From Gigantopelta aegis (Eukaryota > Mollusca > Gastropoda > Neomphalida > Peltospiridae), in the NCBI RefSeq assembly GCF_016097555.1, contig NC_054708.1, positions 26,000,205 through 26,064,204 on the forward strand: 64,000 bases of DNA, read 5' to 3'. This document shows positions 8,396 to 64,000 of this stretch, piece by piece. Within the stretch, counting starts at the first letter, position 1. The number at the start of each line of letters is the position of its first letter. The position numbers and the translations under genes are program-made. The notes under the pieces are model-generated. The model did no database searches and was not told where the DNA came from. It saw nothing but the letters and a program-made list of their open reading frames with translations.

Positions 8396-8485
8396 GAGGA
8401 GGAAGGCCAGGAAAAACTGAGCAGACTGTTTTCTAAATTACACATAAAAATAACATGGTTTTGGCCAAAATGAAAGTGGACCAAC

Positions 8486-18860: not shown

Positions 18861-19016
18861 ATGCAGAACAAAGATGTCTTGTGCTATGTCTGGAGTTATC
18901 TCCTCCTTATGGTAGTGCTCTTTCCTGGGGCTGATGGTCAAGTCATATTGGAGGACTTGTGTAGCTATGACAATCAGACAGTTCCGACAAGTGGAGGTTT
19001 TCCTTTACAAGGGCAG
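18861..19016 (+). CDS. EVC2: EVC2 exon 1: signal peptide
   Basis: ATG at 18861; the GTG three bases upstream is not needed. The 52 codons end at donor CAG|GTAAGT, phase 0. Residues 9-22 are hydrophobic (YVWSYLLLMVVLFP) and cleavage is likely after GADG (residue 26). The mature start QVILEDLCSYDNQT contains a cysteine and the first glycosylation sequon. Confidence 0.88.
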
Positions 19017-22000: not shown

Positions 22001-25000
22001 CACCGAGGTGGTTCGATCCTATGATGCAAGCACCTCAGGCAAGCACTTGGGGAGGGGTCTTTCTTTAAGTTTATTGCATGTTGTTTCACATAATTTATCA
22101 GTGTTGAGGGGTGAGATGTAACACTGCGGTAGAGTGCTTGCCTAATTTACCAGTCATTGGGTACTGGTTGGAATGGGGAAAACCCTGAAACCATTGAAAA
22201 CATGCCCACAATTTACTTAAAGGCCAGAGGCCAGTTGTTCAAACATTAGTTATCTTAACCAGTGGTTAACAGAATTATATAAAAGCAAGGACTGAATCAA
22301 TACAAATTATAATTGAAGACATAATGTGGAAACTTGATTTAGAACAATCATAATCATATCTAAAGTTTATTTTGCATTTGTGCAATAATAATTAAAAGGA
22401 AAATATTAGACTTATCCAGAGTTAGTTTACTGTGCTTTGAACAACTGGACCCTAAGTCACTCTTCACACCCTTGTTTTGGCTTTGTACACAATAAATATA
22501 ACAAATCTTGTACTAGAAATCCATATTTCATAAAAGGTACACTTTTTTAATCACAAGATTTTCTTCACACACACTCAGGTGCATTAATAATGTTCAAACA
22601 AAAATATTTGAATAGCAATTATGTAATGAAATGTTTCCAGCATTCTTAAAATGGAAACGTCATGTACTTAGTTTATTGTAAGGAGATGCAAAGTGACATG
22701 ATTGGAATACTGACGTCATTCAGAATCAAAATCAGCTATATTATTACAGTGCTAAGCTAAATTAAAATAAAAGCTGGTCTACTAACCGTGACCCCTTTCA
22801 AAATTCAATAACAAGCAGACAACGCTGTTTACGGGTCGATATGTTTATATTTTTCATAATTCTGGATACAGTATTAAGTTTAAATTTTAAAAGATGAAAA
22901 AAATATATAAAACTTTTGTCAAATATATGATATGTTTTATTTACTGTGTACGAAACCAAAACAAGGGTGCGAAAAGTGTCTGCGTCAACCGTAGTCTTTG
23001 TCCTATCAATTCAGAAATATCTCAGAGTGCAGATAAAAAAATTAATGTTGTTGTCTGTTCTTCTTATTCTTCTCATATTTTCATTACATGTATATTTGAT
23101 TTCACTACAATAACATAATTATGTGTTTTTTTTGTTTTTTTTAATTCTGCAGATGGTTGATGCTACACGTAGTCCGCCTTTAGTGTTCTTTAGAACCGAG
23201 CTGTTGCATTCTGAGAACTCGACGGAAAGCTCCATTTCTGATGTTCTTATGGATGAAACCATGACGACGGGGATGTTGATTATTCTTGGCACAGGCTTCG
23301 TTCCGGGAATCTTTGCCCCAAACCTCACAAACAACGGGAGAGTCTCTTTATCGTGGTACCATACATCTGTAGCTTGTGAGTGTTCAAAACACCTCTATGT
23401 TTTGCTGTTTTATTTTTAAACTTTGGTTTACAATTTAGGCAGGATCAATTAGAATTTATGGAATTCATCTTTGTATGCAATATTTATCACAATGTGTGTA
23501 TGGTAGTCAATTGGACCTGAGCGCCAAACAATCCTTGCAAAGTGTGGCATCGGGTAAGCTAATACAAAGGTGATCCACACTGCAGGAAAGGAAATGGTTT
23601 ATTTATGGTTTATGCGCTCAACACATTTTATTTACAGTTATATGGCGTCATACATATGGTTACGGACCACACAGATACTGAGGGAGGAAACCTGCTGTCG
23701 CCACTTCATGGGCTACTTTTTTTGTTTAGCAGCAAGGGATCTTTTATATGCACTGTCCCATAGACAGGATAGCACATACCATGACCTTTGATTTCCAGCT
23801 CTTTATCACTGGACTACGTCCTGCTCCTTCGACGTTGCAGATCAAAAAAGGAAAAGCAATTATAAAAATCAGAAACTGTTAAAAAGGCTTTGGATAGTAT
23901 TTGATAGATTCTTGATATATAGGCCTATCCTAGTTAGCATTCTGCCAGTGGGCAGTGGTAGAACATCAGTGGCTTAAACGTTGGCCCATCATCATTTTGC
24001 CACTGGACAGACCACAATGGCATACTGGAAAACGTATCACTGGTAGCTAGGTCTCACTGGTGTTGGCTATAGTTGCCAGTCTGTCACTTAGTGGCCAATG
24101 TTGATGCAACTGTTCCAATGAAAATCAGTTAATGTTGAATGAAGATAATGAGCTATCTGGGTATATGCACCAATGTGACATATAATTTCAAAAGCATCTT
24201 TATTATTGTTTTGTTAAGTCCTATTGTTTTGAAAATATTTTAGTTTTTGAGGGTTAGCCTTGAAAAAAGTTAGCATTTCTCTCTCCCCATCAGTGTATCT
24301 GCAACTGAAACATTTTATATTGAATATATATTTTCTTCGTTCTCCTTATTCATTTGAAGCTGTCTTGAATAAATATTAATTAGATTTTTATTAGACACAT
24401 CTCAATCAAACCTTTTTCTGACAGACCGTATAATGATTTATGAAAACCAAACAAAAATCCTCTACAAAATATGGAAAACATATCATATAAGGATGAATAA
24501 CTTCAGGGTTTTCTGGAAGTCCAGATTTCAATGCTAATCAAGATGGGGTTTTTTATTCTTTTATTTATTAACTTTTTGTTGAAAACATTATAATATAGCC
24601 AACTACTTTTCCTGAACCTGCAGAGTTTTTCCCAGTTGTTTTGCATCATTTTGATTTGTGATAATTTATTTGTGTTATTTCAGCAAACGACAGTCGTGTG
24701 ATAGAGTATCAGGCGGAACCGGACGGTTCGAACGGTGGTAACCTTGCAGCAGGGCAGTCCTGGTACTGGTCTTCCATATCATTCAGAGATGTAAGTACAT
24801 CACTCTTAATTGCTGTGATAGAGAACCGGACAGAACCGGATGGTTTGAACTGTGTTAGCCTTGCAGCAGGGTAGTCCTGGTACTGGTCTTCCATATCATT
24901 CAGAGATGTAAGTACATCACTCTTAATTGCTGTGATAGAGAACCGGACAGAACCGGATGGTTTGAACTGTGTTAACCTTGCAGCAGGGTAGTCCTGGTAC

Positions 25001-28000
25001 TGGTCTTCCATATCATTCAGAGATGTAAGTACATCACTCTTAATTGCTGTGATAGAGAACCGGACAGAACCGGATGGTTTGAACGGTGGTAACCTTGCAG
25101 CAGGGTAGTCCTGGTACTGGTCTTCCATATCATTCAGAGATGTAAGTACATCACTCTTAATTGCTGTGATAGAGAACCGGACAGAACCGGATGGTTTGAA
25201 CTGTGTTAGCCTTGCAGCAGGGTAGTCCTGGTACTGGTCTTCCATATCATTCAGAGATGTAAGTACATCACTCTCAATTGCTGTGATAGAGAACCGGACA
25301 GAACCAGATGGTTTGAACTGTGTTAACCTTGCAGCAGGGCAGTCCTGGTACTGGTCTTCCATATCATTCAGAGATGTAAGTACATCACTCTTAATTGCTG
25401 TGATAGAGAACCGGACAGAACCGGATGGTTTGAACTGTGTTAGCCTTGCAGCAGGGTAGTCCTGGTACTGGTCTTCCATATCATTCAGAGATGTAAGTAC
25501 ATCACTCTTAATTGCTGTGATAGAGAACCGGACAGAACCGGATGGTTTGAACTGTGTTAACCTTGCAGCAGGGTAGTCCTGGTACTGGTCTTCCATATCA
25601 TTCAGAGATGTAAGTACATCACTCTTAATTGCTGTGATAGAGAACCGGACAGAACCGGATGGTTTGAACGGTGGTAACCTTGCAGCAGGGTAGTCCTGGT
25701 ACTGGTCTTCCATATCATTCAGAGATGTAAGTACATCACTCTTAATTGCTGTGATAGAGAACCGGACAGAACCGGATGGTTTGAACTGTGTTAGCCTTGC
25801 AGCAGGGTAGTCCTGGTACTGGTCTTCCATATCATTCAGAGATGTAAGTACATCACTCTCAATTGCTGTGATAGAGAACCGGACAGAACCAGATGGTTTG
25901 AACTGTGTTAACCTTGCAGCAGGGCAGTCCTGGTACTGGTCTTCCATATCATTCAGAGATGTAAGTACATCACTCTCAATTGCTGTGATAGAGAACCGGA
26001 CAGAACCGGATGGTTTGAACTGTGTTAGCCTTGCAGCAGGGTAGTCCTGGTACTGGTCTTCCATATCATTCAGAGATGTAAGTACATCACTCTTAATTGC
26101 TGTGATAGAGAACCGGACAGAACCGGATGGTTTGAACTGTGTTAACCTTGCAGCAGGGTAGTCCTGGTACTGGTCTTCTATATCATTCAGAGATGTAAGT
26201 ACATCACTCTTAATTGCTGTGATAGAGAACCGGACAGAACCAGATGGTTTGAACTGTGTTAACCTTGCAGCAGGGTAGTCCTGGTACTGGTCTTCCATAT
26301 CATTCAGAGATGTAAGTACATCACTCTTAATTGCTGTGATAGAGAACCGGACAGAACCGGATGGTTTGAACTGTGTTAACCTTGCAGCAGGGTAGTCCTG
26401 GTACTGGTCTTCCATATCATTCAGAGATGTAAGTACATCACTCTTAATTGCTGTGATAGAGAACCGGACAGAACCAGATGGTTTGAACTGTGTTAACCTT
26501 GCAGCAGGGTAGTCCTGGTACTGGTCTTCCATATCATTCAGAGATGTAAGTACATCACTCTTAATTGCTGTGATAGAGAACCAGACAGAACCAGATGGTT
26601 TGAACTGTGTTAACCTTGCAGCAGGGTAGTCCTGGTACTGGTCTTCCATATCATTCAGAGATGTAAGTACATCACTCTTAATTGCTGTGATAGAGAACCG
26701 GACAGAACCAGATGGTTTGAACTGTGTTAACCTTGCAGCAGGGTAGTCCTGGTACTGGTCTTCCATATCATTCAGAGATGTAAGTACATCACTCTTAATT
26801 GCTGTGATAGAGAACCGGACAGAACCAGATGGTTTGAACTGTGTTAACCTTGCAGCAGGGCAGTCCTGGTACTGGTCTTCCATATCATTCAGAGATGTAA
26901 GTACATCACTCTTAATTGCTGTGATAGAGAACCGGACAGAACCAGATGGTTTGAACTGTGTTAACCTTGCAGCAGGGTAGTCCTGGTACTGGTCTTCCAT
27001 ATCATTCAGAGATGTAAGTCACATCTTGTGAATACTGTACCAGGTATATATATAACAAAACAAAGAAGAAGAAAAAACCCAAAGACTTTAAAGAAACTGA
27101 TTTTTTTTTATATGTAACTGATTTCTTAAATTGGGCATGTATCTGTAAATACTGTACATGTAATGCTCTGCATTAAAAAAAAAAGTTTAAAGGAAGTGAA
27201 AATTATTTAGATATAACTTATTTTTTTAATTATATGTCACTGTGAATACTGTTTACATATGAAAACCAAAACTTTTAAAAGAAGTGAAAATTGTGCATAT
27301 ATATAGAGAGTAAAACATCTCCAAACCAGATACCCACGTGATCAAGTAGAAAATCTGGTTTTATGGGGTATCTGATGATCATCATAGAACTTGGTGCATG
27401 TACAGACATTTCCTTTCTGTTTCCACACTAATGCTGATACATAGCATCTGTACTCGCTTTGAGTTTGGAGTCTTCCTTCTCCTAGGAGAGTTTTCTTACT
27501 AGGATTCTGAGCCTCTCCAGTCCAGTTTTGATTTTGGAGTTTGCTTCTACTAGACAGTTGTGTTTCTTGACTCAATCCTATGTCTGTCCAGTCCATATTA
27601 GTCTAGTCTCTACCCTTTGACCAGTCCAGCTTGGGTGACCCTACCAGGAGCTGATGCTCCAACTGGCATAGCTCTCCGAGTCATTGAGACATGCAAGCTA
27701 CCTCACCACATCAAGGAATGGACCATGAGATAGTATGGGGTATCTAGTTAGGAGGGGTTCTGTATTGATATTTCAAAAGGGACTATGAAAAATGTCTGGT
27801 TTTGAGTGAATTCCAGTTTACAGAGGGTCCATTTTTGAGGGAATTCCAGTAAACAGAGGGTCCAATATTGGGAGTTTTCACTGTATATGATTTCTTGAAG
27901 TGTATTTATAACTGATTTCTGTAAGAATGGGATTATTTCACCTATTATATGACATATTATTTTTGTTTCAGACAAGTGGAAATTACTATGGACCAATAGA

Positions 28001-30077
28001 TACTAGTGTGTGTGTCAACAGGATGGATAACAATATCCAGAATGTAAGTCATGAATACATAAGGTATTAAATATGTCACGGCTGATGACAATGTATGTGA
28101 AGTAATTAAGATGGTTTTGAGATTACAGCTGTATGTGCTGTCCTGTCTGTGAGATGGTACATATAAAAGATCACTTGCTGCTAATGGAAAACTGTAGCAG
28201 ATTTTCTCTAAGACTATATAATTATGTTCAATTTACCAAATGTTTGATCTCCAATAACCAATGATTAATAAATCAGTGTGTTCTAGTAGTGTTGTTAAAC
28301 AAAACTAAATTTTTATTTTTATTTAACAAAACCAAACTTTAACCATATATCATAAAAAATTAGCATCCAACATTTTTCACAAACAATATCTCTTTAAAAT
28401 TGAGTAAAATTATTTGATACTGAGAGTTGTCTCAAGAGGTGTAAATACAGAGGTCACCTTGCACATTGCCAAATTAGTCAATTGATATTTTTTCATTATA
28501 GAAAATAGCTACAACATTTAGGCTTTGACTTATAAAATATTCCTTAAATTAACCACATTTTAGTAATTTTCAAGGAAATACTTTACATTAATCTGAAAAT
28601 TGGCTAAATAAACATTTGTTGCAGTGTGAGCCTCGTACATGCCATGTATATCTCAAGTCAAGTCATCTGTGCAGTTCTGCCATTAGTAGTTCAATGCTGT
28701 GTAAATCTCCCTTTAATCTGAGAATGCTGTGACATTATATATATATTGTTGTGTTAAATATTTTCAGATATTCTACCAGCACGGAGCGACCGGTGCGACG
28801 TTTATCGTGGCCCTCATTCTTGGCTTTGTGCTCGTTATTCTGATTGTGTGCTTCCTCATCAGGAAGGGAAGGTGGATCAAGTCTGTGTCCCCTGCTAACG
28901 TATGTATAAGCCAGACACATGTGTGTCATCTTGTGTGTTTTGCTTACCAGGGAAAATATTTTACTCAGTATCATATGTCACGATTTGCTATGTAATGCTA
29001 AAATAAGACTGTCAGCTGTCACAATGAAGTTGGCTAACTCAATGGTTGCATTGTAATTTTCCCCACTCCTGACTTAGATGAGCACACTCAGATTGACAAG
29101 TAATCGTATACAATGCGAATCAAGTTGTAAGAGTGCTCAAATTAGCAACTGGACAGTCGTAGAAGTTGAGACATCATTAAGTTGGCCAACTCTGTTGTGA
29201 CAGTTGATAGTTTGAGCCTAGCATTAGTTTTAGAGATTGATACAAAATTCTATGTCATTAAATAGTGGTTAGTAACTGTTGTTAATTAAAATTTTGAAAA
29301 TAGAATGTTTATGGTAGCGTAACATGCATTCCATGTGAAACAGCAAAAATTTCTACCATAGAAGCTAGAGTCAGTGACTTTGTTGACATCCAAGAATATT
29401 TTTAATGAATGACATTAGGTGTTTAGCATATGGCAATCGTGATACTTGGTCTATAGAGTGAAACCTACTACCAACACATAGGGTACTCTTTTCAAATAAT
29501 CTCTTATACAAGTGACATCAGGAATTGTTGAAAGGAGCTTCATTGCTATAATGAACTGAAGAAAAGAAAACACATTACCAAGAAGCCAGTTCTTCACACC
29601 TTCTGACCATCCCACCACAGTAACATGCCTAATCTTTTATATCAATATTTTTGGTGAAAAAACCCACTGTCTAAGCATAGTAATTATTTTATTTATATTA
29701 GGAACAGAAGATGCTAGCGAAAGGCCGAAAGGTAATGATGGACCCGAGAGCTGCTATAAGGAAAGGTCTCAACACAATCAAAGATTTCAGGTAATCAGGG
29801 ATTTTATTGCTTTCTTTTAGTTTAGGACATTTCTGACCAGCACTTAATTCATTTATATTAACTTGATTTTCATACTTGTATTCAGTTAAAGTTCATGCTT
29901 ATAATTCTGGGCATTCACCTCAGCTATCTAATTAGTTGTTTTTGGTTAGAAAGAGAGAGGGAGAGAGTTAGATGGAGACAGAGAGTTAGAGAGAGAGACA
30001 GAGAGTTAGAGAGAGAGAGAAAGAGAGTTAGAGAGAGAGAGAAAGAGAGTTAGAGAGAGATAGAGAGAGTTAGAGAG

Positions 30078-30117
<40 letters not shown>

Positions 30118-33100
30118 AAGGGACAGACGGACGGACGGACAGATAGAGAGAGACAGAGAGACCAGGCACATGTGAAGGTGGGGTTGGTAGTCGAAACCAC
30201 ACCATGCTCAAGCAAAGTTTCTTCTTTTTTTCAATATATATTTTTAGGGGAGCACAACCACCCCCCAACATAAAATTCATTTGTCACTGTCTAGGCCCCA
30301 CCTGTTAAAATTTTGGCACATGTGCCTAGAGTCAGTGTAATGACTTCCCATTAAAAAATATAAGCTCCCTCTGGGTGGGAGCTAGTAGTCACTATTAACA
30401 AAATGGTAAGAAAATGATATTAAAAGTAAAATAACTAGTTCAGCACAATGTCCCAATTCTGTACAGTATGATATAGTTTCTTTGTGTTGGTCTTATGGCT
30501 TATACATGTGATGCGTTTTGGTGATAACTGGTGTCTATTTGAATGATTGGCAATTAGATATCCTGAGAAAGTACGTATATAACATGCTTATTTTAGGTTA
30601 CATGTTATATATTGTTTTATTATGAAAGTCAATAATTGTACAAATTTAAACACAGATGTTTGAGCCTGTAATATTTTTTTAATAGAAAGTAAATATAAGT
30701 GACATGTCAAGATAAACTGTTGCTTTCTTTACCTATTTCTTCTGGCTTATTTGTTCCAGCATGCTTGCGTTGGACGATAGCATCGTGCTTGTCTTAGCAT
30801 TAAAAGACAAGCTTCAAATGTTCAGAGAAGTTGACAAGTGAGTAAACAATTACTATTGTGTCCCATTTTGGCAACATAAGAGATATGATTGTGTCTTATA
30901 AAGGGACTATAATGATGTTTATTTGACCTTGAAAATTTGGGTGACGATGGTCCTTTTGAGATGTCCATCATATTGGAATGTACCACTAAGGTGGTTACCT
31001 TTATGAAAAACACTTTGAAGTTTAGTCCTCCCAGACGGTATGGGTAATCTATTCTGGTCCATGTACTAATTACAGGTACACTGATATGTGATTTTTAACT
31101 AATTAGTGAAAGACATGTTACAGTTTCAGTAAACTATGGATATTATTTTTAATTAATTGTACATACAGTAAAATACTTTGAGAATGAACACGCTTACAAC
31201 AAACTACCGGTTAGAATGAACTGATTGTAAAGTCCCGTTGTTTCCCCCTAAATAGTATTAATAAATTTTAATGTATAGAATGAACTATGTATAGCATATT
31301 AATTGTTAAAACGAACTAATTTGTTTGTCAAAATTGTGAATTTCAGTGTAAATTAGTGTATTAACCGATAATTTTTTTCTTATTTGTATCTTATCAGTCA
31401 GTAGCATTAACGGCAATGCATCCAAAACGACTATACTGATATTGGTGATAATAAATGAAATATTTTTTAAAACCCCACTAATTCTTGTATTTAAATTTGA
31501 AAAATCCAAAATTGCTGACTCATGAATGAAAACAGCTAACTTCCACAAATGTGTATAATGAAGTACTGCTATAATGAACCGATGTGTCCAGTCCTTTGCT
31601 GTTCGTTATAAGAGTACTTTACTGTAGTTAAAATTAATATTAGTTTTTTATACTAAGTGGGTTGAAAGGTTGTTTGCTAAATTATGTCACATTACTGTAA
31701 TATTATCTCCAGTATTATCCTGCAACCACTTTTTCTATTGGCTGATTATGATGACCGATTCAAGCAAAGTTATAAAAGTATACTGGCAGATTATGACTTT
31801 TAATGTCACATGCATATATTTGACTTCTATGTCATCGTACAATGACAATGTATTTGAACAGCTACAGATCCAGGGGTTTGTGAAAGGGTTATATGGACAT
31901 CGTAAGAGGTGTTTGATAAAAAAAAAAAAGTGAAAAAAGGGTGACCCTTCTCTGGATCTTACCCTTGTGAAATAACAGAAGTAATAATTTTTCCCCTTCA
32001 TTTAAAAATTCTTTTTGGATTGTAGGATAAAAATAATTAGTTAATAATGTAGGATGGTGGATAAAGCCGATATCCTATGACATTAACTAATTATTCTCTA
32101 TATCATTGTCATCATTATCATTGCCATTATCACAATCATCAGCATCACCTTATATTATCATTCCTATTACCCAGCATGGACATCGTGTCTACAAACACTG
32201 TGGAACAGGAACTGGAGTCTGAACAGACTGAGGCGGCGACGGAGGCGAGCATACTACTCGTGCACGGTCTACGTGACAACAGTGACATCAGCAAGCAGAC
32301 AGCGGACAGGGTGGTCGGCGACTTACACACCCGACTGAAGACTCTCGACAAGAAACTCGACATTGAATACAAGAAAGACCTGGAGGAGGTCTATGTGGAT
32401 CTCAGTGCTAAAAACAAGGTATTATAGTAGACAGAGATCAGTGCTAAAAACAAGGTATTAGTAGACAGATATCAGTGCTAAAAACAAGGTATTAATAGAC
32501 AGAGATCAGTGCTAAAAACAAGGTATTAATAGATAGAGATCAGTGCTAAAAAAACAAGGTATTAATAGACAAGAGATCAGTGCTAAAAACAAGGTATTAA
32601 TAGACAGAGATCAGTGCTAAAAACAAGATATTAATAGACAGAGATCAGAGCTAAAAACAAGGTATTTATAATGTATAGACAATTAATACTGCATGAGTGG
32701 CCTGAAACAGAGGCGTTGCTGTTGATTTCAGCGTCGTGTTAAATGCTTGTTGTGATTTCTGCTTATAAAATACCTCGGATAAGAATGCCGACTTCACCAC
32801 AGTATACTCCATTTATTAAAAACACAAAAAACAACCCAACAACAAATCCTTTAATAAAATTAATATTTACGGTCTTTTTAAAATCCAGCTAACTTATTAA
32901 ATGTCACCTCACAGTCTTACAAATTTATATCTAAAATTATCTAACAAATATTATTGTAAACTAATTTTATTCAGTGTACATTTAACTGCAATTTGTATAA
33001 TTTAAATACTGCATGTTCATTTCCGGCGATCGCGATCTGCATGTGTGCTCTCGACCATGGGTACGAAATTAACAAAGACAAAGGAATAAGCAAAAACTGT

Positions 33101-36100
33101 AGTTGGTATTCATTGATGCGAATAACTATTGTTTTTCTACAAATTTACATCAAGATTTACTTTTGCGTAATCATATTGTTTAATGTCCGCAACGATGTCT
33201 CTTGACACGCGGGTATCAGCTGACTCTGAAGCGTTTTGTTTTCACTCGGTCTGGCTGAACTCAGCCGTTGAGTTGGCCTACATGTCTTTTGGCCCTGAAC
33301 TGGCATGTGTATTCAAATTGACACGCACTGTCGGTCTGTTTTTATTACTTTGGTTCAAAGATTTTACAAAGTGAAAATAACAAATTACAGATCTTCCAGA
33401 CATTGCTGTCATACATGTTGAATGAATGCCGTTAAAATTAATATCCGTGATTATTAAAATAAGCAAACATTATAAGGCATGACATCGCTTCTCGTTACCG
33501 GTCGCGAGATCGCTATTACGCTAATTGAATGTTTGAGGTGTCGGATAGATTATGTAACGGTTTGTTCACACCAGAAGACAGAAAATGGCTTAGCCAAAAT
33601 TTTAGCCACTTGCAAATTTTATTAGCCATTTTTTGTAAAAATTAGCCAATGGCTAATTTGGCTACCGACAGCGTGAGCCCTGAAGATATTAATAGACAGA
33701 GATCAGTGCTAAAAACAAGGTATTAGTAGACAGAGATCAGTGCTAAAAACAAAATATTAGTAGACAGAGATCAGTGCCAAAAACAAGGTATTAGTAGACA
33801 GATCAGTGCTAAAAACAGGGTATTAGTAGATGGAGATTAGTGCTAAAAACAAGGTATTAATAGTCAGAGATCAGTGCTAAAAACAAGGTATTAGTAGACA
33901 GAGATCAGTGCTAAAAACAAGGTATTAGTAGACAGAGATCAGTGCTAAAAACAAGGTATTAGTAGACAGATCAGTGCTAAAAACAAGGTATTAGTAGACA
34001 GAGATCAGTGTTAAAAACAAGGTATTAGTAGACAGAGATCAGTGCTAAAAACAAGATATTAGTAGACAGAGATCAGTGCTAAAAAAAAAGGTATTAGTAG
34101 ACAAAGATCAGTGCTAAAAACAAGGTATTAGTACACAGAGATCAGTGCTAAAAACAAAAAAAAGTTTGTTTTATTTAACGACGCCACTAGAGCACATTGA
34201 TTTTTTATCTTATCATCGGCTATTGGACGTCAAACATATGGTCATTTTGACACTGTTTTAAAGAGGAAACCCGCTGTCGCCACATAGGCTACTCTTTTTT
34301 CGACAGGCAGCAAGGGATCTTTTATTTGCGCTTCCCACAGGCAGGATAGCACAAACCATGGCCTTTGTTGAACCAGTTATGGATCACTGGTCGGTGCAAG
34401 TGGTTTACACCTACCCATTGAGCCTTGCGGAGCACTCACTCAGGGTTTGGAGTCGGTATCTGGATTAAAAATCCCATGCCTCGACTGGGATCCGAACCCA
34501 GTACCTACCAGCCTGTAGACCGATGGCCTGCCACGACGCCACCGAGGCCGGTGCTAAAAACAAGGTATTAGTAGACAGAGATCAGTGCTAAAAACAAGGT
34601 ATTAGTAGACAGAGATCAGTGCTAAAAACAAGGTATTAGTAGACAGAGATCAGTGCTAAAAACAAGGTATTTATAATGTATAGACAATTAATACTGCATG
34701 AGTGGCCTGAAACAGGGGCGTAGCGTGAGCTGGACCTGGGGGGGGGGTTCGAATATGAACCAAGTGGACCTTTTCTATTTTGTTTTTGCACCACCAGAAA
34801 CTCCATATGTATAAACCTGTATGTTTTAGTTCTGAAAGCGGACCATTTGCTTCAGCGGGGGGATTCGTCTGAACCCAATGAATCCCCGCCCCCCCCCCCC
34901 CAGCCTACACCCCTGTGAAAATATCAATCATTTAAACAGTGTGCACTTTGCTGTAACATTGATTATTTTGAGGAATGCTGAAGATATCACAAGTAAATAC
35001 ATGTACATTGTTTATTTTTTGCTTTATTCAGGAAAAATGTGGTGAATTGATGACTCTGCATCGAAAGCAAAAAGCGGAAGCTCAACAAAAGGTGACAGAC
35101 GTACCTGAAGAGGTGAGAACAACAGCATTATCATACACATCATTAATACATAGTGTTATGCAACCTCCATTAATAATATAATTATACAGATTATTCTGTA
35201 TTGCATTATACCTTATGTTGTATCATAATATTTTGTATATTACAGTATATTACTTTTCTTTAGTCCGTCCACTCATTCTATAAAAATGCATTTTGTAAAT
35301 AATTTCAGTTCGTTTGACATAAAAAAAAAAAAAAAAAACTATTTTTGTGTGCAATTTACAAATCAATCAGCTCAGAAATAACTTGTAGTAAATTTCATAG
35401 TACAGTGAAACCTCTTAAAACCAGACCCTCTGTAAACTGGAATTCCCTCAAAACCAGACGTTTTGTGCGACCCTCTTTTAAATATCTGTACATAAAAAAA
35501 CCCCTCTCTAAACCAGATACCTCTAAAAACCAGATGTTTTATTTGGTCCTGAGGGTATCCGGTTTAGAGGAGTTTGATTGTATGACAAAAGGCGTTCCCC
35601 GTGGTACGGACTATAGCTAGTTTATATCTTCACAAGTTTATAGAGATTTGAGAATTAATTATCTGTCTAAAAATACAGACTGATGTGACTGTAATAGATT
35701 TAAAATAATAAAGTATTTCTCCTAAATATAAAACATAATGCAACTAAATGGAATTGAAGTAAATTTTTAGTGTAGCATTAAATTTAGTTTTTTTTAAGAG
35801 TTTAACACATATTGACATTCAGGATAATTACTGGTTGATACCACCATTACCGGCCTTGGTGTCGCAGTGGTTAAGCCATCGGACTACAGGCTGGTAGGTT
35901 TATGGTTCACAGCCCGGTACCGGCTCCATCCCAGAGTGAGTTTTTAAGGTTGTATACTACCAAATCAAATCCCATAGACGACAATAGTAACATATGTGGC
36001 TAAAACTCCTACCTGCAGCGTATCAATCAACATAAACGCCATGGATATAAATACTACCACCCCTCACACTTAAAGTGAATCACAAAAAATTGGGGGTCAA

Positions 36101-44815: not shown

Positions 44816-44860
<45 letters not shown>

Positions 44861-47800: not shown

Positions 47801-50800
47801 TGTCAAACATTTAGTAATTCTGACATACATAAAGTCTTCAGTTAAAAGTTTGTTTTGTTTATCAACACCACTAGATTTATTAATCATCGGCTGTTAGATG
47901 TCAAACATTTAGTAATTCTGACATACATAAAGTCTTCAGTTAAAAGTTTGTTTTGTTTATCAACACCACTAGATTATTTAATCATCGGCTGTTAGATGTC
48001 AAACATTTAGTAATTCTGACATACATAAAGTCTTCAGTGAAAAGTTTGTTTTGTTTATCAACACCACTAGATTTATCAATCATCGGCTGTTAGATGTCAA
48101 ACATTTAGTAATTCTGACATACATAAAGTCTTCAGTTAAAAGTTTGTTTTGTTTATCAACACCACTAGATTTATTAATCATCGGCTGTTAGATATCAAAC
48201 ATTTAGTAATTCTGACATACATAAAGTCTTCAGTTAAAAGTTTGTTTTGTTTATCAACACCACTAGATTTATTAATCATCGGCTGTTAGATGTCAAACAT
48301 TTAGTAATTCTGACATACATAAAGTCTTCAGTTAAAAGTTTGTTTTGTTTATCAACACCACTAGATTATTTAATCATCGGCTGTTAGATGTCAAACATTT
48401 AGTAATTCTGACATACATAAAGTCTTCAGTTAAAAGTTTGTTTTGTTTATCAACACCACTAGATTTATTAATCATCGGCTGTTAGATGTCAAACATTTAG
48501 TAATTCTGACATACATAAAGTCTTCAGTTAAAAGTTTGTTTTGTTTATCAACACCACTAGATTTATTAATCATCGGCTGTTAGATGTCAAACATTTAGTA
48601 ATTCTGACATACATAAAGTCTTCAGTTAAAAGTTTGTTTTGTTTATCAACACCACTAGATTATTTAATCATCGGCTGTTAGATGTCAAACATTTAGTAAT
48701 TCTGACATACATAAAGTCTTCAGTTAAAAGTTTGTTTTGTTTATCAACACCACTAGATTTATCAATCATCGGCTGTTAGATGTCAAACATTTAGTAATTC
48801 TGACATACATAAAGTCTTCAGTTAAAAGTTTGTTTTGTTTATCAACACCACTAGATTTATTAATCATCGGCTGTTAGATGTCAAACATTTAGTAATTCTG
48901 ACATACATAAAGTCTTCAGTTAAAAGTTTGTTTTGTTTATCAACACCACTAGATTTATTAATCATCGGCTGTTAGATGTCAAACATTTAGTAATTCTGAC
49001 ATACATAAAGTCTTCAGTTAAAAGTTTGTTTTGTTTATCAACACCACTAGATTGATTAATCATCGGCTGTTAGATGTCAAACATTTAGTAATTCTGACAT
49101 ACATAAAGTCTTCAGTTAAAAGTTTGTTTTGTTTATCAACACCACTAGATTTATCAATCATCGGCTGTTAGATGTCAAACATTTAGTAATTCTGACATAC
49201 ATAAAGTCTTCAGTTAAAAGTTTGTTTTGTTTATCAACACCACTAGATTTATTAATCATCGGCTGTTAGATGTCAAACATTTAGTAATTCTGACATACAT
49301 AAAGTCTTCAGTTAAAAGTTTGTTTTGTTTATCAACACCACTAGATTTATTAATCATCGGCTGTTAGATGTCAAACATTTAGTAATTCTGACATACATAA
49401 AGTCTTCAGTTAAAAGTTTGTTTTGTTTATCAACACCACTAGATTTATCAATCATCGGCTGTTAGATGTCAAACATTTAGTAATTCTGACATACATAAAG
49501 TCTTCAGTTAAAAGTTTGTTTTGTTTATCAACACCACTAGATTTATTAATCATCGGCTGTTAGATGTCAAACATTTAGTAATTCTGACATACATAAAGTC
49601 TTCAGTTAAAAGTTTGTTTTGTTTATCAACACCACTAGATTTATCAATCATCGGCTGTTAGATGTCAAACATTTAGTAATTCTGACATACATAAAGTCTT
49701 CAGTTAAAAGTCTGTTTTGTTTATCAACACCACTAGATTTATTAATCATCGGCTTTTGTAATTGTGACATGAAGACTATGTAGTCTTCAGAGGAAACCTG
49801 TTACATGTTTCCATTAGCAGCAAGTATATAAGCAAGTTATAAGTATACTATTATGTATTTGATTTATAAAAATATACTATTTAGTATTTCAGACAATTTA
49901 CAGATGCTATTCAGTTACTACAGACTCTTAATATTTCAGGGTATGGGATGTAGCCCAGTGGTAAAGTGCTAGCCTGATGCGTGGTCAGTCTAGGATCGAT
50001 CCCCGTCGGTGGGCCTATTCGGTTATTTCTCATTCCATCCAGTGCTCCACAACTAGTGTAACAAAGGCTGTGGTATGTACTATCCTGTCTTTGGGATGCT
50101 GCATATAAAAGATCCCTTGCTGCTAATCGGAAAGAGTAGCCTATTGTGCGGCGGTGGCAGGTTTCCTCTCATTATATGTCTCTGTGTCATCTTTAACCAT
50201 ACATTGTATGTCCGACACCATATTATCATAATTAAAACATGTTGAGAGTTGTTGAATAAAAACATTCCTTTCTTCCGTTTAATATTCCAGACCCAGAGTC
50301 ATACGTACAGGGCTTACTTCAACTGAAGTCCCAACATCGCAGTGAGCTCAGTGGGCTAGAGAACGAGATAGATGCAGAACATGCACAGGAGCTCGCTAAG
50401 GTTCGCGACAAAGTCAACGAGAATGCCAAGAATGAGCTCAAAGTAATCGAGGACAATCTGCTGCAGAAACTCCAAGAAGAAGGTATTAGCTGTACTATAG
50501 CTGTACTATAGCTGTACTATAGCTGTACTATAGCTGTGTTATAGCTGGACTATAGCTGGACTACTATAGCTTTACTATAGCTGAACTACTATAGCTGTAC
50601 TATAGCTGGACTACTATAGCTGTACTATAGCTGAACTACTATAGCTGTACTATAGCTGGACTATAGTTGGACTACTATAGCTGGACTATAGCTGGACTAC
50701 TATAGCTGGACTATAGCTGGACTATAGCTGGACTACTATAGCTGGACTATAGCTGTACTATAGCTGGACTATAGCTGGACTATAGCTAGACTATTATAGC

Positions 50801-53800
50801 TGAACTACTATAGCTGTACTATAGCTGGACTATAGTTGGACTACTATAGCTGGACTACTATAGCTGGACTATAGCTCGACTATAGCTCGACTACTATAGC
50901 TGGACTATAGCTGGACTACTATAGCTGGACTATAGCTGTACTATAGCTGGACTATAGCTAGACTATTATAGCTGTACTATAGCTGTACTATAGCTGGACT
51001 ATAGCTGTGCTATAGCTGGACTATAGCTGGACTATAGCTGTGCTATAGCTGGACTATAGCTGGACTATAGCTAGATTATTATAGCTGTACTATAGCTGTA
51101 CTATAGCTGGACTATAGCTGTGCTATAGCTGGACTATAGCTGGACTATAGCTGGACTATAGCTGGACTGTAGCTGTACTATAGCTGGACTGTAGCTGTAC
51201 TGTAGCTGGACTATAGCTTTACTGTAGCTGGACCGTAGCTGTACTATAGCTGGACTATAGCTGTACTATAGCTGGACTATAGCTGGACTATAGCTGTACT
51301 ATAGCTGGACTATAGCTGTACTATAGCTGGACTATAGCTGGACTATAGCTGGACTATAGCTGTACTATAGCTGGACCGTAGCTGTACTATAGCTGGACTA
51401 TAGCTGGACTATAGCTGTACTGTAGCTGTACTATAGCTGTACTATAGTTGGACTATAGCTGGACTGTAGCTGGACTATAGCTGTACTATAGCTGTACTAT
51501 AGTTGGACTATAGCTGGACTATAGCTGGACTATAGCTGTACTGTAGCTGTACTATAGCTGTACTATAGTTGGACTATAGCTGGACTATAGCTGGACTATA
51601 GCTGGACTATAGCTGTACTATAGCTGGACCGTAGCTGTACCTGGACTATATCTGGACTGTAGCTTTACTGTAGCTGGACCGTAGCTGGACCATAGCTGGA
51701 CCATAGCTGTACCATAGCTGGACTATAGCTGTCACATTACTGTGCACTGTACTATTTGTTTTATGTTTATACTGAACAACAGAAAAGAAGACATGGATTT
51801 TGGGGTTTTTTAAAAATGTTTTAATGATAAAAATAATTTGATAGTTGTAATAGACCAAAAAATTAGCTGGACTAAGAGAATTAAATTAATATTTGTCTTT
51901 CTTTTGTGGTGCAGTGTATTTCCAGGTAAGTAAATCTGTTTAACAAGGCATGATCCAGAACCAGGTTTGTAAACTTGTATTTTGTTTTGGGGCGGAACAT
52001 AACCTAGTGGTAAAGTGATTGCCTGATGCATATTCGGTCTAGGATCGATACCCATTTGTGGGCCCATTGGGCTATTTCTTCGTTCCATCCAGTGCTCCAC
52101 AACTGGTGTAACAAAGGCTGTGGTATGTTTTATTTTATCTATAGGATGTTGCATACAAAAGATCCCTGTATGGTCCTTAACCGTATATCCGACGCCATAT
52201 AGCTGTAGTTAAAATGTGTTGAATGCATCATTAAATAAAGCATTCCTTCCATCCTTCCAACCTTTGTCTGATACCCAACAACCAATGTTTATTTTGTGTT
52301 CATTCCTTTCCATTTAACCAGACATGACCCAGAACCAGGTCAGTAAACTGATGTTTTGTCTATTTAACTAGGCATGACCCAGGGTCAGGTCAGTAAGCTG
52401 ATGTTTTGTCTATTTAACCAGGCATGACCCAGGGTCAGGTCAGTAAGCTTATGTTTTGTCTATTTAACCAGGCATGACCCAGGGTCAGGTCAGTAAGCTG
52501 ATGTTTTGTCTATTTAACCAGGCATGACCCAGGGTCAGGTCAGTAAGCTTATGTTTTGTCTATTTAACTAGGTATGACCCAGGGTCAGGTCAGTAAGCTG
52601 ATGTTTTGTCTATTTAACCAGGCATAACCCATAACCCGGTTAGTAAGCTGATGTTTTGTCTATTTAACCAGGCATGACCCAGAACCAGGTTAGTAACCTG
52701 ATGTTTTGTCTATTTAACCAGCCATGACCCAGGGTCAGGTCAGTAAGCTGATGTTTTGTCTATTTAACCAGGCATGACCCAGTGTCAGGTCAGTAAGCTG
52801 ATGTTTTGGCTATTTAACCAGGCATGACCCAGGGTCAGGTCAGTAAGCTGATGTTTTGTCTGTTTAACCAGGCATGACCCAGGGTCAGGTTAGTAAACTG
52901 ATGTTTTTTGTTTAACCAGGCATAACCCAGAGTCAGGTTAGTAAACTGATGTTTTGTCTATTTGACCAGGCATAACCCAGGGTCAGGTCAATAAGTTCAT
53001 GTTTTGTCTATTTAACCAGGCATGACCCAGGGTCAGGTCAATAAGTTCATGTTTTGTCTATTTAACCAGGCATGACCCAGAACCAGGTTAGTAAACTGAT
53101 GTTTTGTCTATTTGACCAGGCATAACCCAGGGTCAGGTCAATAAGTTCATGTTTTGTCTATTTAACCAGGCATGACCCAGGGTCAGGTCAATAAGCTGAT
53201 GTTTTGTCTATTTAACCAGGCATGACCCAGAGTCAGGTCAATAAGTTCATGTTTTGTCTATTTAACCAGGCATGACCCAGGGTCAGGTCAATAAGCTGAT
53301 GCATCAACACGAGAAGGAGATGTCGGACCTGGAGGCGATACAGCAGGAGAGCCGCAAGAAGCAGGCGAGGAAGCTGAAGGAAGACCTGGCTCGCAAGAAA
53401 CTCGAGTGGGAGCAGCAGAAAATCCGGGAGAAAACTGAGCAGGCAGAACTGCGGGATCACGAGATCAAGCTGGCCAAGTGAGTCACATACATGTTACTGG
53501 CATCACCAGTCTTCTTACAGGGACATCACCATTCTTCTTACAAAGACATCACCATCCTTCTTACACAGACATTGCCATCCTTCTTACACAGACATCGCCA
53601 TCCTTCTTACACAGACATCACCATCCTTCTTACACAGACATCACCATCCTTCTTACAGAGACATCACCATCCTCCTTATAGAGACATCACCATCCTTTTA
53701 CAGAGACATCATCATCATCCTTACAGAGACATCACCATCCTTCTTATAGAGACATCACCATCCTTCTTACAGAGACATCACCATCCTTCTTATAGAGACA

Positions 53801-56800
53801 TCACCATCCTTCTTACAGAGACATCACCATCCTCCTTATAGAGACATCACCATCCTTTTACAGAGACATCATCATCATCCTTACAGAGACATCACCATCC
53901 TTCTTATAGAGACATCACCATCCTTCTTACAGGGACATCACCATCCTTCTTACAGGGACATCACCATCCTTCTTACAGGGACATCACCATCCTTCTTACA
54001 GGGACATCACCATCCTTCTTACAGAGACATCACCATGTTTCTTACAGGGACATCACCATCCTTCTTACAGGGACATCACCATCCTTCTTACAGAGACATC
54101 ACCATGTTTCTTACAGGGACATCACCATCCTTCTTACAGAGACATCACCATCCTTCTTACAGAGACATCACCATCCTTCTTACAGAGACATCACCATGTT
54201 TCTTACAGGGACATCACCATCCTTCTTACAGGGACATCACCATCCTTCTTACAGAGACATCACCATGTTTCTTACAGGGACATCACCATCCTTCTTACAG
54301 AGACATCACCATCCTTCTTACAGAGACATCACCATCCTTCTTACAGGGACATCACCATCCTTCTTACAGAGACATCACCATCCTTCTTACAGAGACATCA
54401 CCATTCTTCTTACAGGGACATTATCATCCTTCTTACTGACACATCACCATCTTTCTTACAGAGACATCACCATCTTTCTTATTTTTTTATTTGTTTTCTC
54501 GATTGTGATTTTCATCCCTGTTCTTAGAGATGCTTAGTCCTCCATTATTGTACTAGACAGTCTGGTTTATGGATGACTGTCCCACACAACTACTTGTAGG
54601 ATCAGTGCCTTTAAGTGCATAAAAGGAGGAACATAAACTAGAAATCACTGATATAGTTTTTCCTCTTTTTGCCCTCAGCAAGCTGATAAACAGCCAGGTG
54701 TCGATCTCGGAGGAGGAGCGGAACCGCATCCTGAAGGAGCACGAGCTGCAGATGGTGAAGCTGGAGAACAGCCTGACGCTGAACAAACTGAGACAGAAAC
54801 GCATGCTGGAGGACCGGCTCAGTCAGAGGAAGGCTCAGCAGCTCCACGAGCTGCAGGTAGCTGAGGCCAAGGTAAGAGTATTGAGAAACTCCATGAGCTG
54901 CAGATAGCTGAGGCCAAGGTAAGAGTATTGAGAAACTCCACTAGCTGCAGGTAGCTGAGGCCAAGGTAAGAGTATTGAGAAACTCCATGAGCTGCAGATA
55001 GCTGAGGCCAAGGTAAGAGTTTTGAGAAACTCCACGAGCTGCAGATAGCTGAGGCCAAGGTAAGAGTTTTGAGAAACTCCACTAGCTGCAGATAGCTGAG
55101 GTCAAGGTAAGAGTTTTGAGAAACTCCATGAGCTGCAGATAGCTGAGGTCAAGGTAAGAGTTTTGAGAAACTCCACTAGCTGCAGATAGCTGAGGTCAAG
55201 GTAAGAGTTTTGAGAAACTCCACGAGCTGCAGATAGCTGAGGCCAAGGTAAGAGTTTTGAGAAACTCCATGATCTGCAGATAGCTGAGGCCAAGGTAAGA
55301 GTATCCAGAAACTCCACGAGCTGCAGATAGCTGAGGCCAAGGTAAGAGTATCCAGAAACTCCATGAGCTGCAGATAGCTGAGGCCAAGGTAAATGCATTG
55401 AGAAACTCCACGAGCTGCAGATAGCTGAGGCCAAGGTAAGAGTATCAAGAAACTCCATGAGCTGCAGATAGCTGAGGCCAAGGTAAATGTATTGAGAAAG
55501 TCCACGAGCTGCAGATAACTGAGGCCAAGGTAAGAGTTTTGAGGACTTGTAAAAGTCTAAATAAAATTGTACCTAGGGTCATATCATGAGATACAGCTGG
55601 CAGAGACCAACGTAAAAGTATTGAGGAAACTCCTAAAACTCTAAATAAAATTATACCTATGGTAGATTAGGGTCTCCACGAGTACTTGAGTGCTTGGGCG
55701 ACTCAAGTCCATTCACAGGACTTGAGTACCTCAAGTCCATTCACAGGACTTGAGTACCTGTGAAAGTCTTGAATACAAATCTGCTACGTAGAGTCTCCAC
55801 GAGTACTTGAGTGCTTGGGTGACTCAAGTCCATTCACAGGACTTGAGTACCTGTGAAAGTCTTGAATACAAATCTGCTACGTAGAGTCTCCACGAGTACT
55901 TGAGTGCTTGAGTACCTCAAGTCCATTCACAGGACTTGAGTACCTGTGAAAGTCTTGAATACAAATCTGCTACGTAGAGTCTCCACGAGTACTTGAGTGC
56001 TTGGGCGACTCAAGTCCATTCACAGGACTTGAGTACCTGTGAAAGTCTTGAATACAAATCTGCTACGTAGAGTCTCCACAAGTACTTGAGTGCTTGGACG
56101 ACTCAAGTCCATTCACAGGACTTGAGTACCTGTGAAAGTCTTGAATACAAATCTGCTACGTAGAGTCTCCACGAGTACTTGAGTGCTTGAGTACCTCAAG
56201 TCCATTCACAGGACTTGAGTACCTGTGAAAGTCTTGAATACAAATCTGCTACGTAGAGTCTCCACGAGTACTTGAGTGCTTGGGCGACTCAAGTCCATTC
56301 ACAGGACTTGAGTACCTGTGAAAGTCTTGAATACAAATCTGCTACGTAGAGTCTCCATGAGTACTCAGGCACTGGCCGAGTCTAGCAAAATCCGAGTCTG
56401 TTCACAGGAATCGAGTACCTGTGCAAGGAAGAGCACTCTCATTTAATTATATTGTTTATGTCATTTTGCCATGTGCTTGCTGCCAGTTAAATTATAAGGC
56501 TGTAAGACAGAGGGAAAACAAAAAGTCTTCTTAGTCTCACTATAATGATAATTATCATCTAGGGTAAGTGTCAAGTACGCGTGGAAGCCAGGGCGGGATG
56601 TAGCCCAGTGGTAAAGGGCTCGCTCAATACGCAATCGATCCCAATCAAAAAGAGTAGCCCAAGAAGTGGTGACAGCAGGTTTCCTCTCTCAATATCTGTG
56701 TGGTCGTTAACCACATGTCTGACGCCATATAACCCGTAAAATAAAAAATGTGTTGAGTGCGTCATTAAATAAAACATTTCCTTCTTTTTCTTTGTGGAGG

Positions 56801-59800
56801 CCCATATCACAAGCTACAGCTGGCAAGGGCCATGATAAGAGTATTGAAAAAACTCCTAAATGTCTAAATAAAATAAATACCCGGTATAGGAGATATGAAC
56901 ATTTGTTGGGCGCGGTAGGGAATATGTATTGCTTTAGCAGTATCCTCAAAATGCTTGTTGTTTTAGTAATTTTTTTCCCTGAATTAAATACTTTTTTCTT
57001 TAATGAACATACAGAAACGTCCCAAATCTTCCCAGGCTAAAGACGACAGCCTCGATGAAGATGTCAACCAGCGGAAACAGCTAATGCTGTTAAAGAAGCA
57101 AGCTGAGCAGAAGATAGCTATTCTCCAAGGTCAGAAGCTTGACCTTGACGATGAACTTGAGCAGATCCAGATGGAGATGATAAAAGAGCGAGCCATGGCT
57201 CTGAGAGAGCAGGAGGAGAGACTGGGAGCCATGATCACAGCCTTGCAGATGGAGAGGGCACGAGAGGTATGTGATGGCCATGTAGGACATTCGTTTTACT
57301 TCAGGCCGTAGGAAGTGGGGGGAGTGGAGGGAAACAGGGAGCAGGAGGAGAGGCTGGGAGCCATGATCACAGCCTTGCAGATGGAGAGGGCACGAGAGGT
57401 ATGTGATGGCCATGTAGGACATTCGTTTTATGTCAGGCTGTAAGAACTGTGGGGAGTGGGAGGAAGGGAGAGCAGGAGGAGAGACTGGGAGCCAAGATCA
57501 CAGCCTTACAGATGGAGAGGGCACGAGAGGTATGTGATGGCCATGTAGGACATTCATTTTATTTCAGGCCATAGGAACGGGGATGGGGGGGGGGGGGAAG
57601 AGAGCAGGAGGAGAGACTGGATGTATACTGATATATATAACTCAAAAGCATCCATGAATTATAGTTGATTTGGCTGTGAAAAAAAGTTTAAATATTTGCT
57701 TCCATACTCCCTTTCCTTCCTTCTCTTCATTTGTTCTTTCTCTTCTCTTCGCTTTCTTTCTCACCCTATCTCCCAACTCCTTCTCTCAGGGATGGGATTT
57801 AACTCAGTTGGTAGAGTACTTCCCTACATGAGGTGTTTGAGTTGTAGGATCAAATCTCCGCAGCACACTCATTGGGTTGTCCCTCAGCCCACAGAGAGTC
57901 CCATGACTGGTATATCAAAGGCTGGAGTGTGGACTGTCCTGTCTGTGGGAAAGCTCATATAAAATATACCTTGCTACTATGGTAATTTTATTGCAAGCTG
58001 ATTATAATACAGCACACTTAAATAAATACAATTAGATTGACCCACTTATTGTTTGTTTTTTATTATTTGTATTTTAATGTTATTTTATTTTATGTTTCTT
58101 TCTGTTCTATTCCGTTCATTGTAATGTTTTATTTATTTTATTTCATTTCAATGTATCACCTTGGGTTTGATTCAGTATGTATTTTATTTCTGCCAACAAA
58201 AGATTTTAGTTTTTTACTTTTAATTGTTTTTGTTCTGGTTTGGTTTCAGCTTGCCAAAATAGAAGAACAACAGAATGCGATTAATAACCTGAAGGCCAAT
58301 CTGATGGACGACCTGACTGACCGAGGGATACTCACGACACCGGAGTGTGAGCAGATTATAGCCAGACACAAAGAGGTGAGCACATTGGTTCCTTACAACA
58401 ACAAAACAAAAATCCCATGCAGTGCGACACAAAGTTAAAAGGTTTGTTTTGTTTAAGGACACCACTAGAGCACTTTGATTTAGTAACCATCGGCTGTTGG
58501 ATGTCAAACATTTGATATGTATATTTTGACAAAAATCTTAGAGAGGAAACCCACTACATGTTTTCAATAGCAGAAAGGAATCTTTATATGCATCATCCCA
58601 CAGACAGGATAGCACATACATGTGTACCATGGCCTTTGATATACCAGTCATGGTGCACTGGCTGGAATGAGAAATAGCTCAATTGGTCTACTGACAGGGA
58701 TCAATCCTAGACCGACACCACACCATCAGGCACTGGGCTACATCCCATCCCATAGTGCAATAGAAGGATAACAACAGACCTTCAAAAATAAATATGAATG
58801 GCTTTGTAATGACTTCGTATTGAACTTTATGGTTAGTTCATTGCTTGAATCATCATTTCTTAATCAGTTAATTGAAGGTTTATTTCTTTTGCATTTTCAT
58901 CTAACTGAAGAAGAAGCATTGCTTTAAATTGTTAAACGCAACCATCAGTTTTGGAAGTAAGATAAAGAATTAAGGTTACCGAGTATTTGTATTTATCAGA
59001 TTCAAAATCACAATACTCAAGTTAGTCTACATGTACTTCTAGCTCAATACAATCTGATTAAAATTAGCTCTACTGGTCTACCAGTAGATCTAACAGCATT
59101 GCGTGGACTCCCATGTCCAGGTGACATTCCATCTATAAATAACAATTTAAATATCGACCAATTACCCTTCGTCTTTTATAGTGTTATTCGGGAGCATACA
59201 AATTCTAAAAATATCGGGCGAGACTATTTATGCAATAGGCGAACTTGTTAGTCTATTTCAACATTAAAAAACAGGGGGAAAAGTGCAGTAATAAACTCTG
59301 GATTGCATACTAGTATAAACAGATTTTATGGCTATACCATCACAGGGGTTTTTTTCGTCTTGAAACAAATTTTAAATAAAATTTTATATTGAAATTAGTT
59401 TCTGGCGTATTTCTTATACCCTCGGCATAATCCCGAATGTTTCAAAATTCTTTTTAAATCACTGGCGTGATTTTGCAAGAAAGGTTTTGATTGGTCGATT
59501 GAAAGGTCAACTGAACATGAGCTCCAACAGGATGCTGTTAGATCCACAGGTAATAGTAATTAACCAGTGGAGCTAATTTTAATTAGATTCACCTCAGTAG
59601 CAAATTTGTTTTGTCCAGTGTTTAATATTTTGTTATGTATTAAATCATTTCAACGATACCATAGTTTGACACCCAATAGCCAATGTATTTTTCACGCTGG
59701 TGTGTCATTAAACATCTATTCTATTCATTTCAACTAATTAATATGCTTCTGGAACTTCGTTACGAATTAGAAAATTATTTTTAATTTATTCATATGTCTG

Positions 59801-63116: not shown

Positions 63117-64000
63117 TGCCAGTCATATGGGCAGATGTTAACATGTCAGTAGTGAAGTTACAGTTTGTTTTGTTTAACTACAACACCAGTCATATGGGCA
63201 GATGTTAACATGTCAGTAGTGAAGTTACAGTTTGTTTTGTTTAACTACAACACCAGTCATATGGGCAGATGTTAACATGTCAGTAGTGAAGTTACAGTTT
63301 GTCTTGTTTAACAACAACACCAGTCATATGGGCAGATGTTAACATGTCAGTAGTGAAGTTACAGTTTGTTTTGTTTAACGACAACACCAGTCATATGGGC
63401 AGATGTTAACATGTCAGTAGTGAAGTTACAGTTTGTTTTGTTTAACTACAACACCAGTCATATGGGCAGATGTTAACATGTCAGTAGTGAAGTTACAGTT
63501 TGTTTTGTTTAACGACAACACCAGTCATATGGGCAGATGTTAACATGTCAGTAGTGAAGTTACAGTTTGTTTTGTTTAACGACAACACCAGTCATATGGG
63601 CAGATGTTAACATGTCAGTAGTGAAGTTACAGTTTGTTTTGTTTAACGACAACACCAGTCATATGGGCAGATGTTAACATGTCAGTAGTGAAGTTACAGT
63701 TTGTTTTGTTTAACTACAACACCAGTCATATGGGCAGATGTTAACATGTCAGTAGTGAAGTTACAGTTTGTCTTGTTTAACGACAACACCAGTCATATGG
63801 GCAGATGTTAACATGTCAGTAGTGAAGTTACAGTTTGTTTTGTTTAACGACAACACCAGTCATATGGGCAGATGTTAACATGTCAGTAGTGAAGTTACAG
63901 TTTGTTTTGTTTAACTACAACACCAGTCATATGGGCAGATGTTAACATGTCAGTAGTGAAGTTACAGTTTGTTTTGTTTAACGACAACACCAGTCATATG
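63117..64000. repeat. 67-bp array joining a SINE end to its flank, runs off the window
   Basis: The unit is CAGTCATATGGGCAGATGTT, AACATGTCAGTAGTGAAGTT, ACAGTTTGTTTTGTTTAAC(G/T) ACAACAC. At least 13 copies run to the right edge. The second half of the unit is the 3' terminus of a minus-strand SINE. Copies differ chiefly at TTTAACTACAAC or TTTAACGACAAC. Confidence 0.95.

Follow-up and report, generated by a model that had tools for sequence, protein, structure and literature searches.

Introduction

Amphioxus genes contain minisatellite-like tandem duplications of exon-intron boundaries, termed "mirages", which the available excerpts of two papers report in Adh3, the globins BflGb6 and BflGb9, troponin C and PGBD5 (PMC3087553, PMC3902484). 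The former, on the globins, calls the mirage mechanism unclear and proposes mirages as a route to new introns, and in its excerpts the authors state that regular splicing of Adh3 and the globin genes is undisturbed (PMC3087553); the latter adds PGBD5 to the mirage genes and cites troponin C (PMC3902484). In this work, we analyzed a 64,000-nucleotide stretch of the genome of the deep-sea vent snail Gigantopelta aegis (contig NC_054708.1, positions 26,000,205 to 26,064,204; hereafter the window), in which the EVC2/limbin gene has seven exon-intron junctions lying within tandem arrays. We propose with good confidence that these arrays are mirage-type minisatellites, that is, junction-spanning tandem duplications which were neutrally expanded and homogenised, with selection holding only the exon copy.

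Seven EVC2 junctions lie within tandem arrays

The 808-residue protein joined from the exons of the window matches the Pfam family EVC2_like (E = 6.8e-20). Its closest relative among the 21 returned by a search that scored only the 8000 candidates with the most words in common is P0001, a limbin-like protein of G. aegis; the other relatives are 19 from named gastropods or bivalves and P0021, which came without a name. Residues 1-790 of P0001 equal the translation of exons 5-22 with zero differences, and the exact exon ends were fixed by P0001 together with the AG/GT ends; the last position of exon 22 is 59968 and not 59969. P0001 starts inside exon 5, and exons 1-4 (18861-24790) are absent from the public model. 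Exons 3 and 4 were assigned from the open frame, the splice ends and gastropod similarity by tblastn, and exon 2 from the open frame, the splice ends and gastropod similarity judged by eye. One guess is that the array at exon 4 caused the public model to lack exons 1-4. An exact six-residue word search gave no match in the window downstream of 59900 for the 80 residues of P0001 beyond 790. The gene and the exons bordering the arrays are:

18861..19016, plus strand: EVC2 exon 1, coding part, with a signal-peptide-like start (ATG open frame to a GTAAGT donor; similarity to the Haliotis N-terminus by eye)
20960..59968, plus strand: EVC2/limbin exons 2 to 22 with introns (Pfam EVC2_like; P0001 match; AG/GT ends)
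24684..24790, plus strand: exon 4 (open frame, splice ends, tblastn)
32175..32418, plus strand: exon 9 (P0001 match, splice ends)
38812..39036, plus strand: exon 12 (P0001 match, splice ends)
53270..53477, plus strand: exon 18 (P0001 match, splice ends)
54679..54871, plus strand: exon 19 (P0001 match, splice ends)
57015..57266, plus strand: exon 20 (P0001 match, splice ends)

The arrays were detected by Tandem Repeats Finder (TRF), and the real junction within each was shown by the exon model. Both kinds of boundary are affected, with five donors (exons 4, 9, 12, 19 and 20) and two acceptors (exons 12 and 18):

24697..27025, plus strand: 117-bp array, 19.9 copies, across the exon 4 donor, with 19 extra intact donors and a higher-order block of five units (TRF, exon model)
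32402..34671, plus strand: 34-bp array in three pieces across the exon 9 donor; 21 extra intact donors (TRF, recount of copies)
38490..38811, plus strand: the exon 12 acceptor region with about 88 bp of the start of exon 12, in three degenerate copies; 2 extra acceptors with intact AG (sequence comparison)
38998..39969, plus strand: 83-bp array, 11.7 copies, across the exon 12 donor; 11 extra intact donors (TRF)
52312..53301, plus strand: 50-bp array, 19.8 copies, across the exon 18 acceptor; 19 extra intact acceptors (TRF)
54842..55543, plus strand: 47-bp array, 14.9 copies, across the exon 19 donor; 14 extra intact donors (TRF)
57204..57620, plus strand: 131-132-bp array, 3.2 copies, across the exon 20 donor; 2 extra intact donors (TRF)

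The unit of every array spans the boundary and the array is contiguous with its real exon. The true site lies at the exon edge of every array, being the first donor or the last acceptor, and P0001 uses no array-internal site for exons 9, 12, 18, 19 and 20, exon 4 lying outside it. In total, the seven arrays hold 88 extra intact splice sites. An initial annotation had reported tandem copies at these seven junctions and some 90 extra splice-site copies, and both statements agree with the TRF arrays and the exon model; its exon numbering also holds, provided that the exon with the signal-peptide-like start, at 18861, is counted as exon 1. It had described each array as contiguous with its exon, which holds for all seven, except that the exon 9 array is broken into three pieces. 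The repeats that it saw before exon 12 are present, though few and degenerate.

The pieces of the exon 9 array lie at 32402-32670, 33683-34157 and 34551-34671, separated by a short interspersed nuclear element (SINE) and about 1 kb of other sequence. They contain 25 extra copies, of which 21 are intact, three have no GT and one is cut by the SINE; GT losses were counted with an anchor outside the donor, as a donor-anchored search finds only good donors. The SINE, with a tRNA-like part on the minus strand, occupies 34157-34555 and is of a family represented many times in the window; GTGCTAAAAAC flanks it on both sides, resembling a target-site duplication. A 49-bp intron sequence that follows the array was found twice by eye (32662-32710 and 34667-34715). 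A block comprising array and flank seems to have been duplicated, and other DNA of about 1 kb separates the pieces.

The copies of the exon 12 acceptor are spaced 93 and 117 bp apart and comprise two intact copies and one older degenerate copy. All three share a 12-bp gap relative to the exon, and therefore they probably derive from one early ancestor copy. In addition, the exon 19 donor has one further degenerate copy 82 bp past the 47-bp array.

Array copies compared with the exon and with each other

Consensus sequences were compared with the exons for five arrays, the exon 20 and exon 12 acceptor arrays having too few copies. For exon 4, the consensus of 18 array copies departs from the exon at 10/94 exonic and 0/23 intronic positions, with amino-acid changes and a gained stop, so that the coding sense is lost. 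The exonic and intronic differences are 0/17 and 2/17 for exon 9, 2/39 and 0/44 for the exon 12 donor, 1/32 and 0/18 for exon 18, and 1/30 and 1/17 for exon 19. Private variants and block structure are present among the array copies. Units five apart in the exon 4 array are most alike, with a mean of 1.15 differences; at the remaining lags between 1 and 11 the mean is 1.88-2.67. The 13 five-apart pairs differ at 0, 0, 0, 0, 1, 0, 1, 3, 2, 2, 3, 2 and 1 positions. This five-unit periodicity indicates block duplication, as expected from unequal exchange.

Based on this anatomy, we propose the following course of events. A founding tandem duplication of 34-132 bp would take the exon end, the splice site and the intron start, or the mirror image at an acceptor. 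Such a duplication would be tolerated because the exon-proximal copy keeps a working splice site. Slippage or unequal exchange might then change the number of extra intronic copies in either direction; these copies would become alike and, with no protein constraint on them, drift, whereas just the spliced copy would be preserved by selection.

In general, such a founding step could occur by slippage or microhomology joining. The direct repeats at the breakpoints, exon side against intron side, measure 5, 0, 6, 4 and 3 bp for exons 4, 9, 12, 19 and 20, including the recurring TGTGA (exon 4), GAAAAA (exon 12) and CTCC (exon 19). Pooled over the five donor arrays and set against random intron flanks, however, microhomology is not significant (sum 18, P = 0.33), and a claim of microhomology at the founder breakpoints was dropped.

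Excess of arrays at the junctions of one gene

In the EVC2 introns, another five repeat families have no junction inside. The arrays found elsewhere in the introns include:

50487..51732, plus strand: 11-bp array starting 4 bp into intron 17, beside the exon 17 donor; no exon sequence (TRF)
53483..54481, plus strand: 23-bp array of intron 18, starting 5 to 23 bp past the exon 18 donor; no exon sequence (TRF)
45131..49754, plus strand: 98-bp array of 47 copies in intron 16; its unit is part of a SINE and not a junction (TRF, comparison with the SINE)
40865..41497, plus strand: related 84-bp and 46-bp arrays of intron 13; no exon sequence (TRF)

The SINE that seeded the intron 16 array has many dispersed copies in the window. 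The 46-bp unit of intron 13 is similar to the intronic flank of the exon 14 acceptor (exon from 42384). The intron 13 array as a whole (40865-42422) is built of similar half-units, with unit-like sequence directly before the exon 14 acceptor. Ten non-junction units were compared with the exons plus 40 bp of flank. The 84-bp, 46-bp and 23-bp units scored above 60 shuffles, and their matches are intron sequence beside exons 17, 14 and 18, respectively; the 11-bp unit matched its own array, and the remaining six gave no score over 60 shuffles in this comparison.

For a test of placement, families were defined as TRF arrays of period at least 20 between exons 2 and 22, with pieces of one unit merged; rows with periods below 20 were excluded, as were two 28-bp rows, at 51613 and 55702, because of their overlap with other arrays. 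Seven of the 12 families span a junction, compared to 0.76 expected when founder units are placed uniformly (P for seven or more = 1.43e-6). The result is much the same with exon 1 included (P = 1.4e-6), without units wholly in exons or over two junctions (P = 1.6e-6), or without the exon 12 acceptor family (6/11, P = 5e-6, 200,000 simulations). A further test, chosen after seeing the data, added the 11-bp array and slid the arrays within their own introns; nine of the 13 arrays span a junction or have an edge at most 25 bp from one, where 0.90 are expected (P = 4e-9). These results support the conclusion that junctions are over-represented as array sites within this one gene, and to that extent they lend partial support to the suggestion of the initial annotation that junctions seed duplications, with the reservation that they come from one window picked for the feature.

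Possible reasons for the placement at junctions

The mirage-type account concerns what the arrays are, and two explanations of their placement are both compatible with it. By the first, a property of the boundary, such as R-loops linked to transcription or splicing, exon-edge nucleosomes or fork pausing, would make tandem duplications arise far above background there, in many genes. The excess in both tests argues for it, as do the two arrays that begin 4-23 bp from a donor and the one unit resembling acceptor-side intron, all of which are free of exon sequence, and the several amphioxus genes with a like pattern. Sense-strand G skew is positive in six of the seven junction units (0.12 to 0.45; 0.00 in the seventh), in line with R-loops. 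However, it is also positive in four of six non-junction units (0.05 to 0.24; -0.07 and -0.65 in the others), and overall it is 0.12 in exons and 0.03 in introns. The skew is weakly suggestive, and is also in line with junction units simply containing exon. With the evidence drawn from one gene selected for the feature, we regard boundary-directed mutation as a serious possibility, about which we are somewhat doubtful.

By the second explanation, the gene is simply rich in minisatellites, and some founder units happen to span junctions since duplication there is harmless. Between exons 1 and 22, arrays do account for 38.1% of the intron sequence (14,477 of 38,037 bp), and the array of intron 16 had an ordinary seed, a SINE. 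Uniform placement gives the 0.76 families already mentioned instead of seven, yet correction for the number of windows in the genome softens this figure considerably, as given below. We consider chance with tolerance rather unlikely.

Several observations weigh against the mirage-type account or the role given to junctions in it. The use of the edge sites rests on P0001, a database protein that is probably itself predicted, and exon 4 lies outside it. A clear split between exon and array is seen in exon 4 only, the other four arrays compared having 0-2 exonic differences. The founder breakpoints have the non-significant microhomology described above. In addition, the acceptor copies of exon 12 at 38602 and 38695 would add 210 and 117 in-frame bases without a stop, so that the open frame in both leaves room for use; judged by their sequence, they are possible alternative exon starts. 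Finally, the junction excess comes from one gene, in a window picked for this feature, and multiplying 1.4e-6 by the approximately 19,800 64-kb windows that make up a 1.27-Gb genome leaves about 0.03. Despite these points, we favour mirage-type minisatellites as the account of the arrays, and suggest that the intronic copies are probably neutral and that junctions may be favoured founder sites.

Spare splice sites are not preferentially conserved

The initial annotation had also offered selection for decoy splice sites, by which the repeats would be kept to modulate EVC2 splicing. The 88 intact sites speak in favour of it. GT or AG is present in every copy examined of the exon 4 (18 copies), exon 12 donor (10), exon 18 (19) and exon 19 (14) arrays, and three of five arrays show no variation in the splice-site window (exon 4, exon 12 donor and exon 9, the exon 9 set being biased as it was chosen by its donors). 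Human IFI6 gives a reported precedent for used minisatellite donors. However, 26-73% of the unit windows equal or exceed the splice-site window in conservation (fractions at or below its diversity: 0.48 for exon 4, 0.73 for exon 12, 0.53 for exon 19, 0.34 for exon 18 and 0.26 for exon 9), and in none of the five arrays tested does the splice site stand out from the rest of its unit. Moreover, GT has been lost in three of the 24 uninterrupted exon 9 copies listed from outside the donor, and use of 86 of the 88 spare sites is predicted to give a stop or a frameshift. Selection for decoys is therefore very unlikely.

Inflation or invention of the arrays by the assembler is highly improbable: long near-identical arrays are generally known as a weak point of assembly and a short-read assembly of G. 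aegis also exists, but the copies carry private variants and block structure, and the published host genome, according to the part of its report available, was built from PacBio reads and polished (correction of subreads above 4 kb; read length minimum set at 8 kb), with reads longer than every array (largest 4.6 kb), the window presumably coming from that assembly. Spread of one element was rejected, as the initial annotation had done: the units are unrelated, each junction unit matches its own exon, and the intron 16 array is SINE-derived.

Comparison with described boundary repeats

The EVC2 arrays fit the mirage definition where it was tested (the original amphioxus Adh paper is reportedly that of Canestro 2002), and the statement of the initial annotation that no described class of such repeats was known has to be withdrawn. 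In both systems the units span a real 5' or 3' boundary and are contiguous with the exon, and many copies, not all, keep AG/GT, with 88 intact sites and three exon 9 losses in EVC2. Unit lengths overlap as well, being 34-132 bp in EVC2 and 10-160 bp in amphioxus, according to the available excerpts. Copies of amphioxus mirages are homogenising, whereas in EVC2 the exon copy is clearly set apart in the exon 4 array only (10/94). Regular splicing is reported for amphioxus mirages, and in EVC2 we infer it from the edge sites, which give residues 1-790 of P0001 exactly. Amphioxus mirages are backed by reverse-transcription PCR and length-polymorphism data, while the EVC2 arrays are known from one sequence. 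The arrays of the gastropod affect seven junctions in one gene and reach 25 extra copies, compared to 2-7 repeat units in the excerpts on the amphioxus globins and PGBD5.

Human IFI6, the subject of a 1995 paper, likewise has a tandem repeat at a donor with units as potential donors; two downstream repeat units are said to be used as donors, whereas in EVC2 the protein corresponds to the edge site. Human internal tandem repeats at boundaries (De Grassi and Ciccarelli 2009) are also minisatellites across boundaries and can create or shift introns, as far as the available part of that paper tells; they lie in recent segmental duplications, while no new intron is evident in EVC2. No earlier mollusc report of boundary minisatellites was recognised among the titles and abstract openings listed from the open-licence literature. 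What is new here is therefore the phylum, as far as this search goes, the density of the arrays and the statistical junction excess in one gene.

Other features of the window

A 67-bp array at 63119-64000 runs past the window end and perhaps extends in the direction of exon 23. Over 29 bp, its unit matches SINE-like sequence at 21590. Positions 10759-12452 hold a degenerate tetranucleotide array of TGGA type, 1.7 kb long and strongly G-skewed. A candidate coding exon lies on the minus strand at 8442-8637, with no Pfam match. Rfam gave 0 matches in the window at gathering scores.

Implications

The findings carry an obscure repeat type of amphioxus to a mollusc, at a density that makes the question of junction hot spots testable, and they bear on intron and exon gain through splice-site duplication. 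Annotators may be affected, since the public limbin-like model begins in exon 5, beside the exon 4 array. Tentatively, and with more doubt than belief, exon-intron junctions might be hot spots at which tandem duplications are founded across animal genomes generally; the gastropod and the cephalochordates would be independent instances, and Gigantopelta EVC2 an extreme case. If this were true, mirages would widely supply surplus splice sites as well as the raw material of new exons and introns.

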